Positions 1,936 to 28,093 of a stretch of 35,115 bases of DNA are shown here, in pieces. Under the pieces are notes generated by a model, which worked only from the letters and a program-made list of their open reading frames with translations, did no database searches and was not told the origin of the DNA. A program made the translations under genes and the position numbers. The stretch comes from Candidatus Omnitrophica bacterium CG1_02_40_15 (lineage in GTDB: Bacteria > Omnitrophota > Gorgyraeia > Gorgyraeales > Gorgyraeaceae), in assembly GCA_001871815.1 (NCBI GenBank), contig MNVP01000085.1, positions 1 through 35,115 of the forward strand, in the 5' to 3' direction. Each line of letters begins with the position of its first letter. The stretch's first letter is position 1.

Positions 1936-1990
1936 TAGCATATAGCGTTTAGCGTATAGAGAAACTAAACGCTATACGCTATCCGCTATA
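1936..1990. repeat. TAGCGNN heptamer inverted element (H1a), alr/tsaB gap
   Basis: tagcata tagcgtt tagcgta tagagaa / ctaaacgctatacgctatccgcta; overlaps the tsaB stop. Confidence 0.85.
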
Positions 1991-2809
1991 TTTTACTTGA
2001 CAATCTTCTGGATACAGATATAAAGGACTGAGTTTATCCAGATTTGTTTTTTTAGCTTTTTTGATACTTCGACGGCGCCAAACCGCAGTCTTTAGGCCGC
2101 GAACAGAAGCGCCGCTCAGTATCAACCCTGAGCCTGTCGAAAGGTTGATTTTCGAGAAACCAAGCTTTATAAGATTCCCAGCTCCTGGATACCAGTATTC
2201 TTCAAGCAAAAATGCCGACTGGCGTTTATTTTTTGCCTGCCTGCCGGCAGGCAGGCTTAATTCCGCAAAGGCTTTTACGGAATCTTGATTAATATAATTT
2301 GCTATTTTGTCTCCATAAAGACTTAGCCCATCCCCTAGAAAAACAGAATCTCTTTTTACTTTCTTCAAAAACTTTTCTATGGGCAATAGCAAATAATCTG
2401 ATAACCTCGCTACCTTGCTGCCTTTTCTCCTGTAAATAGCAGCATAAACCTGGCCCCTTTTTGCATCTATTATAGGAATAATATATCTGTCTTTTCCCTG
2501 GGCATTACAAGCAATGGAATCCATGCTAGCCACGCCGATGCATGGCTTCCCTGAGGCTATGCCAAAACCTTTTATCGTGCTGACACCTATCCTTAGCCCG
2601 GTAAATGAGCCTGGGCCAAGGCCTATTATAAAAGCGCCTATCTTATTTATAGGCGTTCTGGATTTTTTTAGGAGCTCTTTTACCTTTGGCACCAGCTGGC
2701 TGGCTTGCCTTCTATCAAGTAAATGAGATTCTTCTCTTATTATATCTTCATCTTCGCTCAATGCAATGCTCAGAAATTTTGAACTTGTATCAATGCCTAA
2801 GATCTTCAA
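1979..2809 (-). CDS. tsaB: tRNA threonylcarbamoyladenosine biosynthesis protein TsaB, with two repeat-derived in-frame insertions
   Basis: 'MKILGIDTSSKFLSIAL', 'GLGPGSFTGLRIGVSTIKG'; adjacent to tsaE. C-terminal half carries SLPAGRQA and a 28-aa repeat-encoded segment. Confidence 0.9.
   Translation of the reverse strand: MKILGIDTSSKFLSIALSEDEDIIREESHLLDRRQASQLVPKVKELLKKSRTPINKIGAFIIGLGPGSFTGLRIGVSTIKGFGIASGKPCIGVASMDSIACNAQGKDRYIIPIIDAKRGQVYAAIYRRKGSKVARLSDYLLLPIEKFLKKVKRDSVFLGDGLSLYGDKIANYINQDSVKAFAELSLPAGRQAKNKRQSAFLLEEYWYPGAGNLIKLGFSKINLSTGSGLILSGASVRGLKTAVWRRRSIKKAKKTNLDKLSPLYLYPEDCQVKYSG
2061..2149. repeat. Two-hairpin GCTCA/TTCGAC-type element inserted in tsaB
   Basis: ttgatac-TTCGAC-ggcgc...gcgcc-GCTCA-gtatcaa followed by atcaacc-CTGAGC-ctg-TCGAA-aggttgat; TTGAT direct repeats at 2061-2065 and 2145-2149. 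Confidence 0.8.
2235..2256. repeat. Perfect 22-bp palindrome inserted in tsaB
   Basis: GCCTGCCTGCCGGCAGGCAGGC, 11+11 with no loop; encodes SLPAGRQA on the tsaB strand. Confidence 0.9.
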
Positions 2810-3299: not shown

Positions 3300-4202
3300 T
3301 TAGAAATGAGTAAACCCACTAGGTTTAATTTTCTCTAATTTCCCATTCTTTCTTGCAAGAAAAAACCCTTTATGTATATCGCGTATTTGACCAATTCTAG
3401 AAAGCCTTGTTTCAAACGGCCATATATCCTCCAACCTATCTGCATGCTTCTCAGGTAATGTGAAAATTAATTCGAAGTCTTCGCCATCCCTCATAGCTGA
3501 ATTAAAATCTATGGCATCCTTAGAAACAGGCATTGTTTTTTCATAGATCACTGCGCCTTTATCGCTTTCTTCTAATATATGCCCCAGGTCAGCTAAAAGG
3601 CCGTCGGATATATCTATCATTGAATTAATCTTAAAATTTTTTACTAAAAACCTCGCTTCTTCAAGCCTAGGAGTAAAATTAAGGTGCTTAAGCTTTATTG
3701 AACCGCCTATATTTCCGGTAACAAATATAGCGTCTTTTTCCTTAGCCTTGCTTCTTAACGTTAAATTTTTTATTTCTACTTCTCCGATAAGCGCAATATT
3801 AATAATTATCTTGTTAGAACCAACTGTATCCCCGCCTACTAAATCAACGCTAAACCTGTCTGCAACTTTTCTTATACCCCTATATATCTCATCAGCGTAT
3901 TTTAAATCCAGAGACCCTGGAAAACCTATTGAAATAACTGCAAATTTAGGTATGCCTCCCATTGCTGCAATGTCGCTTATATTTGAAGAAAGGGCTTTTT
4001 TCCCCACCAATCTAGCCGAAGAACCTTTATAAAAATGTTTCCCCTCTAAGAGCATATCTGTTGTAAAAAGCAGGTATTTATCTTTTGTATATTTTAAAAC
4101 AGCTGCATCATCGCCTATGCCTTTTACAACCCGGTTGGACAATCTTATTGCCTTGCTTATCCTGTTTATAAAATTAAATTCTCCTAAATCTTTTAATCTC
4201 AT
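3300..4202 (-). CDS. thiL: Thiamine-monophosphate kinase
   Basis: 'GIGDDAAVLKY', 'LLFTTDMLLEGKHF', 'NISDIAAMGGIPKFAVISIGFP', 'MIDISDGLLADLGHI'. Confidence 0.93.
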   Translation of the reverse strand: MRLKDLGEFNFINRISKAIRLSNRVVKGIGDDAAVLKYTKDKYLLFTTDMLLEGKHFYKGSSARLVGKKALSSNISDIAAMGGIPKFAVISIGFPGSLDLKYADEIYRGIRKVADRFSVDLVGGDTVGSNKIIINIALIGEVEIKNLTLRSKAKEKDAIFVTGNIGGSIKLKHLNFTPRLEEARFLVKNFKINSMIDISDGLLADLGHILEESDKGAVIYEKTMPVSKDAIDFNSAMRDGEDFELIFTLPEKHADRLEDIWPFETRLSRIGQIRDIHKGFFLARKNGKLEKIKPSGFTHF

Positions 4203-5277
4203 AAATGCCTTTTTCAGTTATTATGCCGGAGATCAAGCTGTGAGGAGTAACATCAAACGCGGGATTATAAACCTTTGAATCGATCGGCGCAGTCTGTTTT
4301 GAACCTGTATAAATAATCTCATCTCTATTCCTTTCTTCAATCGGAATATCCTTTCCTGATTTTATATCCTTATCTATAGTAGAGCTCGGGGCTGCTACAT
4401 AAAAAGGGATGCCGTGGTACTTTGCAAGAACTGCAAGGCCATATGTGCCTATTTTATTAGCAGCGTCTCCGTTCCTGGCAATCCTGTCTGCGCCCACTAT
4501 AATTTTTGTAACGCCTTTATTTTTTATGGCGCTGGCTGCCATATCATCGCATATGAGAGTAGCGTCTATGCGCTTCTGGATTAATTCCCACATGGTAAGG
4601 CGCGAACCCTGCATGAGAGGCCTTGTCTCATCAGCGTAAACCTTGAATCTTTTACCCTGTTTCTTAGCTTCATAGATTATTGAAAGAGCTGTGCCCTGTC
4701 CAGCTGTAGCCAGTATCCCGGCATTACAATGTGTTAATATTACATCTCCGTTTTTTATTAATTTGGCGCCGTTTTTTCCTATGGCAACGCACATCAATTT
4801 ATCTTCTTTTAAAATATCCAATGCCTCTTTTAAAATAGCTTTCTTGATTTGCGCTATTGCGTTCCTATATTCTCGACTAGCTTCGTTCACTCGAACAACA
4901 TGTCCCGAGTGAAGTCGAGGGATATTCTTCGAGCGAGGCCAAAGGCCAAGTCGAGAAGTATCAAACCTTTTCTCCATCCTATCCAGAGCCCAGAATAGAT
5001 TTACTGCCGTAGGCCTTGTAGCTCTTAATTTCAAAGAAGCCCTGGCTAAATCTTTTTTAAAACCTCTGAATGTTTTTTCTTTTGAATTAATACCAGCTAA
5101 TGCATATCCCAGGCCAACTGCCACTCCTATTAGAGGAGCGCCTCTTATCTTGAGTTTTTTTATTGCCCCGCATAATGTGTCAATATCCCTGCATTTCACA
5201 TACTTAAGTTTTACAGGAAGCTGTGTCTGGTCTATAAAAACTATATTATTATCTTTCCATTTAATGGGTTCTATCAT
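4174..5277 (-). CDS. mtnA: S-methyl-5-thioribose-1-phosphate isomerase-like (MtnA/aIF2B family), with an in-frame repeat insertion
   Basis: 'IRGAPLIGVAVGLGYAL', 'LRATRPTAVNLFWALDRM', 'ILTHCNAGILATAGQGTAL', 'VYADETRPLMQGSRLTMWEL', 'IVGADRIARNGDAANKIGTY'. Confidence 0.93.
   Translation of the reverse strand: MIEPIKWKDNNIVFIDQTQLPVKLKYVKCRDIDTLCGAIKKLKIRGAPLIGVAVGLGYALAGINSKEKTFRGFKKDLARASLKLRATRPTAVNLFWALDRMEKRFDTSRLGLWPRSKNIPRLHSGHVVRVNEASREYRNAIAQIKKAILKEALDILKEDKLMCVAIGKNGAKLIKNGDVILTHCNAGILATAGQGTALSIIYEAKKQGKRFKVYADETRPLMQGSRLTMWELIQKRIDATLICDDMAASAIKNKGVTKIIVGADRIARNGDAANKIGTYGLAVLAKYHGIPFYVAAPSSTIDKDIKSGKDIPIEERNRDEIIYTGSKQTAPIDSKVYNPAFDVTPHSLISGIITEKGIYEIKRFRRI
4870..4957. repeat. TTCTCGACT-type element, copy E2, inside mtnA
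   Basis: ttctcgact ... agtcgagaa; encodes ~TSRLGLWPRSKNIPRLHSGHVVRVNEASRE on the mtnA strand. Confidence 0.85.
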
Positions 5278-9430: not shown

Positions 9431-10963
9431 CTATCCGATTCGAGGGAACAACGGCGTTCCCTTGTTAATCTTCGTGCCTGGTTTCAATAAACCCCATTTT
9501 AAATCGCTGAAATTCCTCTTTTCTGTATTCTCAAGGCCAAGCTGCCCTGCTATCTTAACGGATGTATCCGGCATGAACGGCATCAATGCTACTGACACCA
9601 TCCTCAAGATTTCGCAAAGGTCGTACATCATATCTTTTAAATCATCCTGCTTATCTTCCTTTGATAGTTTCCACGGCGCTTTCTGCTCTATGAATTTATT
9701 TGCCATATTTATTAGGTCCCATATGCTGTTTAGGCCATAGCTGAAATCTATGCTATCCATGCCTTTTTTGATTTCAGAATCAAGGCCGCAAGCTTTATCA
9801 ATAAGCGCCTTAGTAATTTCGCCGGAATACTTTAAATCCCTTCTTTTAGGCACAAACCCAGCGAAATATTTTTCTACCATTGTCAAAGTCCTGTGCAAAA
9901 GATTGCCCAGGTCATTTGCGAGATCGCTATTAATCCTAGCGATCAGCGCTTCTTCTGAAAACGACCCATCTACGCCAAACTGCGCCTCTTTTAGAAGGAA
10001 GAATCTATAAGCATCCACGCCGAACATGGAAACCATATCTCTAGGGTCTACAACATTGCCTTTTGACTTGGACATCTTGTCTCCACCCACCTTCCACCAT
10101 CCATGGGCAAACACTGTCATGGGCGGCTCCAGGCCTATTGCATGAAGCATTATGGGCCAGTAAACAGTATGCGGCCTAAGAATATCTTTACCTATCATAT
10201 GCATATCAGCTGGCCAGAATTTTTTAAATTTTCCAGGATTATCTTTATAACCGCAAACGCTTATATAATTTATCAGGGCGTCAAACCATACATATGTAAC
10301 ATGATCTTTGCTGAACGGGATATCAATGCCCCATGAAAGCCTTGAGGCCGGCCTGGATATGCACAGATCGTTCAAAGGATTTTTAAGAAAACTCAGCATC
10401 TCGTTTTTCCTTATAGCAGGTTTTATAAAATCCTCATGCGAATTTATATAATCTATAAGCCAGTTCTGGTACTTGGAAAGCCTGAAAAAGAAATTCTTTT
10501 CTTTTATCTCTTCTACCTTGCGCTTGCAATCAGGGCATAGATCATCTGCTAACTGGGCCTTTGTCCAGAAACTTTCGCATGGCGTGCAATACCAGCCGCT
10601 GTATTCGCCTCCATAAAGATCCCCCTTTTTGTAAAGTATATTAAGGATATCCTTTACTACATCTTCGTGCCTTTTTTCCGTAGTGCGGATAAAATCATCA
10701 TAGGATATATCCAATCTTTTCCAGAGGTCTTTAAATATAGGCACAACGCTGTCCACAAATGCCTTGGGCTCCATGGCTTTTGATTCAGCTACATCTTTTA
10801 TCTTCTGGCCATGCTCATCAGTGCCTGTAGTAAATAAAACTTCATAGCCCATAAGCCGTTTATATCTTGCAAGGGTATCGCAGGCTATGTTTGTATAAGA
10901 ATGCCCTATGTGAGGCGTGCTATTTACATAATATAATGGCGTAGTAATGTAAAATTTATCCAT
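9431..10963 (-). CDS. metG: Methionyl-tRNA synthetase
   Basis: 'YYVNSTPHIGHSYTNIACDTLARYKRL', KMSKS motif 'GDKMSKSKGNVVDP'. Confidence 0.96.
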   Translation of the reverse strand: MDKFYITTPLYYVNSTPHIGHSYTNIACDTLARYKRLMGYEVLFTTGTDEHGQKIKDVAESKAMEPKAFVDSVVPIFKDLWKRLDISYDDFIRTTEKRHEDVVKDILNILYKKGDLYGGEYSGWYCTPCESFWTKAQLADDLCPDCKRKVEEIKEKNFFFRLSKYQNWLIDYINSHEDFIKPAIRKNEMLSFLKNPLNDLCISRPASRLSWGIDIPFSKDHVTYVWFDALINYISVCGYKDNPGKFKKFWPADMHMIGKDILRPHTVYWPIMLHAIGLEPPMTVFAHGWWKVGGDKMSKSKGNVVDPRDMVSMFGVDAYRFFLLKEAQFGVDGSFSEEALIARINSDLANDLGNLLHRTLTMVEKYFAGFVPKRRDLKYSGEITKALIDKACGLDSEIKKGMDSIDFSYGLNSIWDLINMANKFIEQKAPWKLSKEDKQDDLKDMMYDLCEILRMVSVALMPFMPDTSVKIAGQLGLENTEKRNFSDLKWGLLKPGTKINKGTPLFPRIG

Positions 10964-22315: not shown

Positions 22316-22492
22316 AATGAGCGCTTGACTTATGGAGCGAGTAAAACGAGCGAACATAAGTCAATGCGCGAATTAATCCCGCCCTTTTGAATAGCAAGCT
22401 GAGAAACCTTGCTAAAAGGGCGGGATAAGTTCGGACAAATAAGTTACGTCACATACTTCTTGGAATAGGGCTCCGTAACTTATGTCCTCACT
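22316..22492. repeat. Three-hairpin intergenic element, copy T1
   Basis: aatgagcgc-ttgacttatg...cataagtcaa-tgcgcgaatt; atcccgcccttttga...aaaagggcgggat; ttcggacaaat-aagttacg...cgtaactt-atgtcctca. Confidence 0.88.
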
Positions 22493-27208: not shown

Positions 27209-27374
27209 AATGAGCACTTGACTTACGGAACAAGCATAGCGAGTGAACGTAAGTCAATGCGCGAATTGAATCCCGCCCTTTTGAATAGCAAGTTGAGAAA
27301 AATTGCTAAAAGGGCGGGATAAATTCGGACAAATCACTTACGGAAACCATAGGTTTCCGTAAGTGATGTCCTTA
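27209..27374. repeat. Three-hairpin intergenic element, copy T2 (mcsB/mcsA gap)
   Basis: Third hairpin cacttacggaaacc-ata-ggtttccgtaagtg (27335-27365). Confidence 0.9.
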
Positions 27375-27885: not shown

Positions 27886-28093
27886 AATGAGCACTTGACT
27901 TACGGAACAAGCATAGCGAGTGAACGTAAGTCAATGCGCGAATTGAATCCCGCCCTTTTGAATAGCAAGCTGAGAAAAATTGCTAAAAGGGCGGGATAAA
28001 TTCGGACAAATCACCCAGCACCTTTTTAATATTCAGCATCTTTTCTTTAAAAACTTTAAATACATAAAAGGTGCTGGGTGATGTCCTCATTTA
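27886..28093. repeat. Three-hairpin intergenic element, copy T3 (mcsA/ilvE gap)
   Basis: Same first ~129 nt as T2 with one mismatch; third hairpin cacccagcacctttt-N39-aaaaggtgctgggtg (28012-28080). Confidence 0.9.

Follow-up and report, generated by a model that had tools for sequence, protein, structure and literature searches.

A probable in-frame insertion of a short hairpin element in the tsaB gene of an Omnitrophota genome, with siblings in other genes

In tsaB, an essential gene of tRNA modification, the uncultured Candidatus Omnitrophica bacterium CG1_02_40_15 has an 84-bp segment bounded by two copies of the pentamer ATCAA. How did such a segment come to lie within a conserved reading frame, and what kind of element is it? 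The window analyzed here, to which all positions refer unless another locus is named, is a stretch of 35,115 nucleotides; the genome containing it is denoted G000. The product of the tsaB open reading frame matches the TsaB/YeaZ structures 3zet, 2gel and 4wq4 in sequence, and its predicted fold is YeaZ/TsaB-like. The features of the gene are as follows.

1979..2809, minus strand: open reading frame of tsaB (yeaZ), 276 codons, with two in-frame repeat insertions
2145..2149, minus strand: left ATCAA repeat (coding strand), present as one copy in empty alleles
2066..2144, minus strand: 79-bp hairpin element coding for most of INLSTGSGLILSGASVRGLKTAVWRRRS, not found in 17 relatives, its core TTCGACAGGCTCA repeated in the genome
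2061..2065, minus strand: right ATCAA repeat (coding strand), present as one copy in empty alleles
2136..2141, minus strand: outer stem arm TTCGAC, pairing with GTCGAA at 2068..2073
2128..2133, minus strand: inner stem arm GCTCAG, pairing with CTGAGC at 2114..2119
2121..2125, minus strand: central TTGAT (motif X), the reverse complement of the flanking ATCAA; the same relation is seen in coaE and in pheS of G002
2114..2119, minus strand: inner stem arm CTGAGC, pairing with GCTCAG at 2128..2133
2068..2073, minus strand: outer stem arm GTCGAA, pairing with TTCGAC at 2136..2141
2060..2124, minus strand: 3' half of the insert, homologous to a dispersed element, Q, by nhmmer and blastn (GATACTGAGCGGCC...GGCCGCGAATGTAT)
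2235..2256, minus strand: second tsaB insertion, a 22-bp perfect palindrome GCCTGCCTGCCGGCAGGCAGGC (LPAGRQ), recognized by comparison with relatives

The insert and its empty sites

On the coding strand the insert reads AAA-ATCAA-(79 bp, CCTTTCGAC...GTCGAAGT)-ATCAA-AAAAGC, with the internal layout ATCAA-CC-TTTCGACAGGCTCA-GG-GTTGAT-ACTGAGC...GTCGAAGT-ATCAA. It adds a net 84 bp (28 codons) in frame and spans 2061..2149 when both repeats are counted. The 84-bp gap slides by exactly 5 bp against the nearest relative, which sets the length of the direct repeat at 5 bp; a 5-bp match at the exact borders of an insert has chance odds of about 1/1024. With the insert collapsed, tsaB reads GFSKIKKAKKTNLDKLSPLYL, as compared to GFSKIKKAKKTNLDKLTPLYL in the relative L011. 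A sequence-only reading of this DNA had described an 84-bp in-frame insertion bounded by a 5-bp ATCAA repeat, whose removal leaves a plausible TsaB C-terminus, and this observation is confirmed.

We aligned the TsaB orthologs of 11 genomes of the same genus and six of the same family, and the segment was absent from all 17. At the DNA level the nearest relatives (L010, L011 and L015) have a single ATCAA at the insertion site, and the other relatives show small substitutions there. The allele lacking exactly 84 bp, for which that reading had proposed to look, was thus found. The insert was also not seen in the TsaB of more distant Omnitrophota and of Elusimicrobia.

Since none of the 17 relatives has the segment, it was gained on the branch leading to this genome. 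The converse, that it is an ancestral part of TsaB which the relatives have lost, is refuted by this distribution, from the genus and family out to distant Omnitrophota and Elusimicrobia; the core of the insert, moreover, recurs elsewhere in the genome, and we give this reading practically no credence. An artefact of metagenome assembly is also very improbable. The genome is a draft in 92 contigs and the element is repetitive, which would favor such an error, but typical reads are longer than the element, the tsaB frame is open across it, the tsaB copy is unlike every other copy found in sequence, and similar insertions occur in independently assembled relatives (in ValS of G002 and G008, and in pheS of G002).

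The second insertion in tsaB, the LPAGRQ palindrome, is absent from G008 (L010), which has the 13-codon extension surrounding it; most other relatives lack both the palindrome and the extension. A literature search returned no description of Omnitrophota repeats or of LPAGRQ. At its C-terminus the protein ends in VKYSG, as compared to VRKP or similar in most relatives. The stop codon of tsaB is overlapped (1936..1990) by a TAGCGKATAGCG repeat family, whose motif was matched 49 times in the genome sequence retrieved.

In a structural model of TsaB devoid of the insert (L143), whose mean pLDDT is 82, the element would enter between K198 and I199; this point belongs to the final turn of helix 188-201, right ahead of a stretch of lower confidence. 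The model of the insert-bearing protein has residues 224-276 under pLDDT 50 and is unreliable past residue 223. Judging from these models, the insert likely occupies a peripheral position. A surface loop, which the sequence-only reading had suggested checking for, is supported only in part, as in the insert-free model the insertion point is within the last turn of the C-terminal helix.

A folded element with siblings in other genes

The tsaB element folds better than its shuffled counterparts (RNA z = -3.45, 0/200; DNA z = -2.10). It had been described as a two-hairpin element; the two inner hairpins (GCTCAG/CTGAGC and CGGCGC/GCGCCG) are there, but the description needs correcting, as an outer TTCGAC/GTCGAA stem encloses both. 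The arms of this outer stem, although short, make up terminal inverted repeats. An alternative fold pairs TTGATACT with AGTATCAA arms, and no uninterrupted TTGATACT...AGTATCAA element was found by a simple pattern search of the genome.

This genome has 19 occurrences of the TTCGACARGCTCA core, and the counts in the rest of the genus range from 0 to 15 per genome. The 3' half of the insert was retrieved by a Q profile at E 2.2e-14 (nhmmer, the window copy being included in the profile), and the C58 copy of Q, used alone as a blastn query, returned the window copy at E 1.5e-6; further Q copies are found in C58, C62, C44 and C32. Because this half belongs to a second family, two events may have been combined in the tsaB copy. 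Comparison of the tsaB element and the Q copies with known structured RNAs (Rfam) gave no match near a family threshold, and a weak L20-leader match in L086 was far under the gathering score. An attC-like nature of Q was considered and dropped, the GTT/AAC core sites being missing.

Hairpin or palindromic inserts keep the frame in several conserved genes, namely tsaB, coaE, ValS and mtnA, and one family can enter unrelated genes: tsaB and coaE share core and frame, and the Q part is found in ValS. The coaE insert (C58) is 123 bp long, has the same center and reading frame (GSGLILSG) as that of tsaB, carries ATCAA at both ends and is absent in all 10 same-genus relatives with a coaE match. G010 has ATTAA at the empty site of coaE, and the site varies among the other relatives, which makes the duplication less certain in coaE than in tsaB. 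The ValS genes of G000, G002 and G008 (L226, L228 and L234) share a Q-type insert (SLGGILS...ECI) at one and the same codon, and the other seven sequences aligned are free of it. In mtnA (4174..5277, minus strand), a 28-codon in-frame insertion LGLWPRSKNIPRLHSGHVVRVNEASREY at 4867..4950 is built of CTCGAC/TCGAGAAC-type palindromic repeats and has matches at 13 other places.

A family member lies exactly at the start codon of pheS in G002, with ATGAA on both sides; all eight relatives aligned at pheS have ATGAA once, at the start codon. At a net 67 bp this element does not add a whole number of codons, but at a start codon that does no harm. In C52, the copy duplicates ATGAAGA, which G010 has once.

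Start-codon insertions were observed at two loci, pheS of G002 (L271) and an efflux adaptor-like gene of G005 (L267). In both, the 3' end of the element places GGAG a few bases ahead of the repeated ATG, so that an element of this kind may supply its own ribosome binding site.

Some further repeats were noted along the way. The ValS gene of G000 has additional in-frame repeats (RTTNDERRTTN, ITNDERQTTNDK). At 10796..10874 of L207, a GTCATTGCGAGGAGCGAAGCGACGAAGCAATC...GATTGCTTCGCTTCGCTCGCAATGAC repeat is inserted in frame in an ORF of 501 codons, which contains other insertions as well. A 74-bp hairpin repeat, AATCCCGCCCTTTTGAATAGCAAG...AAAAGGGCGGGAT, has three copies in the window (22375..22448, 27269..27342 and 27946..28019), two of which lie in a near-identical 138-bp direct repeat.

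The tsaB insertion is in fact one of dozens in the genome, a point that the sequence-only reading had missed. We compared 969 kb of G000, window included, with 586 kb of the same-genus genome G010; 612 ORFs of G000 had a match in G010, and antisense duplicates were removed from the resulting list. There were 39 in-frame insertions of at least seven codons in G000. Of these, 27 have a match at another place in the G000 sequence retrieved, and 12 exceed about 95% of length-matched random windows in palindromic character; the set includes a few ordinary indels in variable proteins. The reverse comparison (G010 against G000) gave five insertions, two of them palindromic and none repeated. Polarity was checked gene by gene for tsaB, coaE, ValS and pheS.

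For frame-breaking insertions, tblastn gave only 10 candidate HSP pairs, mostly near ORF ends, although the two counts come from different methods and their comparison is indicative only. Retention in frame is the outcome to be expected if purifying selection removes broken genes. The tsaB segment had been said to be 'selected to stay in frame': in-frame insertions do exceed frame-breaking ones, whereas the selection itself is something that we infer.

Target site and mode of insertion

The sequence flanking the element and the sequence at its center are related. The central TTGAT of the tsaB and coaE copies is the complement of their ATCAA flanks, the TTCAT at the center of the pheS copy in G002 complements its ATGAA flanks, and in C41 of G007 an ATCA flank is complementary to a TGAT center. 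The C52 copy agrees with its center (TCAT) over the first four bases of ATGAAGA, and the G005 copy has one mismatch at its center (TTAT). A pentamer such as TTGAT is expected in about 6% of shuffled 79-mers, so a single case means little and what matters is the recurrence at the same structural place. As far as can be told from sequence, this X'-X-X' pattern is suggestive of target choice by base pairing, in what are essentially two variants, ATCAA and ATGAA.

The best explanation, which we consider very probable, is a recent insertion of a short, non-autonomous MITE- or REP-like hairpin element at AT[C/G]AA, tolerated in tsaB in the manner of the Rickettsia palindromic elements. The element would have entered an AT[C/G]AA target in the gene, leaving or matching the 5-bp repeat; a transposase would have mobilized it in trans, with a Y1/HUH enzyme favored because the center of the element is complementary to the target. 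The insert would then be translated as a peripheral peptide of 28 residues, with the function of TsaB presumably retained; its length and frame keep tsaB open, which would account for its survival.

The sequence-only reading had proposed a transposition with target duplication. This fits, but a 5-bp duplication is inseparable from a target that already matched the element end, since the coaE copy is also bordered by ATCAA and the center of the element contains the complement of this pentamer. The single-copy targets in the empty alleles of tsaB (the 5-bp ATCAA) and pheS (ATGAA) are formally the same as a pre-existing end match.

Two modes of insertion come into question. With a Y1/HUH transposase (IS200/IS605- or RAYT-like), insertion would be site-specific and single-stranded, with no true target duplication: on the non-coding strand the element would lie 3' of one TTGAT and end, on its 3' side, in another, with the complementary ATCAA inside it as a possible guide. 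TTGAT is also the target of ISDra2. This mode is supported by the fact that end and center change together (ATCAA with TTGAT in two copies, ATGAA with TTCAT in pheS), by the Y1_Tnp genes found throughout the genus and by the precedent of IS608, which chooses its target by pairing with a guide in the transposon (PMC5934647). The resolved events, however, are few and represent essentially two element variants, one pentamer position apart; the 7-bp repeat in C52 is longer than such a target requires, the G005 copy has its mismatch, and the RAYT genes here are flanked by other palindromes. On balance the single-strand mode is quite possible, if somewhat short of an even chance. Under the other mode, a DDE transposase would have carried out a classical double-strand MITE transposition with a true 5-bp duplication and a preference for AT[C/G]AA, as the terminal inverted TTCGAC/GTCGAA arms and the 5-bp direct repeats of tsaB and pheS, single-copy in the empty sites, would suggest. 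This mode would leave the complementarity between center and duplication to chance every time. Repeats of both 5 and 7 bp occur, and a transposase search that covered Y1_Tnp genes revealed no parent insertion sequence having such ends; we see this mode as possible, and as only slightly less probable than the single-strand one.

As to a mobilizing enzyme, RAYT-type Y1_Tnp genes are present in all 12 genomes of the genus. When TTCGACARGCTCA or CTGAGCG..GTCGAA was sought near such genes in the 12 genomes, the TTCGAC repeat flanked none of 30 Y1_Tnp loci, and no RAYT dedicated to this repeat emerged. Accordingly, RAYT-like mobilization of the tsaB element in trans is a conjecture. Several Y1_Tnp genes are flanked by palindromes of other kinds, such as GTAGGGACAGCACAATGTGCTGTCCCTAC beside the gene in C63, and this palindrome family also occurs in frame in an ORF of C7 (L108).

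Two Y1_Tnp genes of G000, in C63 (L040) and C3 (L039), lie beside palindromes of their own, GTAGGGACAG...CTGTCCCTAC and CTGTGCTCAAGACC...GGTCTTGAGCACAG; in C63, one palindrome copy is inside the transposase gene.

A broader proposal would be that of an X'-X-X' hairpin family which selects its pentamer by pairing with the center, moves by a Y1 enzyme acting in trans and repeatedly enters essential genes of this Omnitrophota genus, both in frame and at start codons (where its 3' GGAG precedes the duplicated ATG). Taken as a whole, this proposal is speculative and, in our judgment, unlikely.

Kinship with known systems and significance

The closest parallel by behavior is with the Rickettsia palindromic elements (RPE; Ogata et al. 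2000), described in PMC10969869 and PMC3767692. As with RPE, short palindromes lie in frame in unrelated protein genes, belong to several families per genome and are tolerated as extra peptides. Differences are the phylum, the size (84 bp here vs 100-150 bp in RPE), the resolved 5-bp flanking repeat and its complement in the element center. With caution, and by its behavior as described for the named RPE families, the tsaB element may be called a new member of that kind.

Intragenic REPs with GTAG and CGTC tags have been reported in many cases in Opitutus terrae and Rickettsia conorii (PMC3733652). They too are hairpin repeats inside ORFs, and some REP families go with RAYT genes; in this genome a GTAG-type family, GTAGGGACAGNACAATGTNCTGTCCCTAC, neighbors a Y1_Tnp gene and has also entered another ORF in frame. 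The tsaB element, in contrast, is composite, 79 bp long and flanked by a pentamer repeat, and its own repeat flanks no RAYT gene. MITEs resemble it in being short and non-autonomous, with terminal inverted arms and direct repeats at their borders, but no parent transposon was identified here and the center of the element is complementary to the border repeat. With the ends of IS200/IS605 elements (IS608, ISDra2) it has in common the hairpins and, possibly, a short guide complementary to the target, although it contains no transposase gene and the likeness is known here at the level of sequence.

In-frame palindromic insertions have so far come mainly from Rickettsia and a few other genomes. 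Their rate here is high, with 39 sites among 612 matched ORFs in the comparison with one relative, and the phylum is known mostly from metagenomes. Empty alleles in close relatives make the target of each insertion readable, and the pairing between center and target, if true, would make target choice by small elements directly testable. Inserts of this kind disturb protein annotation and phylogenies in these genomes, and the load of 'selfish DNA inside proteins' that this Omnitrophota genome carries is unusually heavy.
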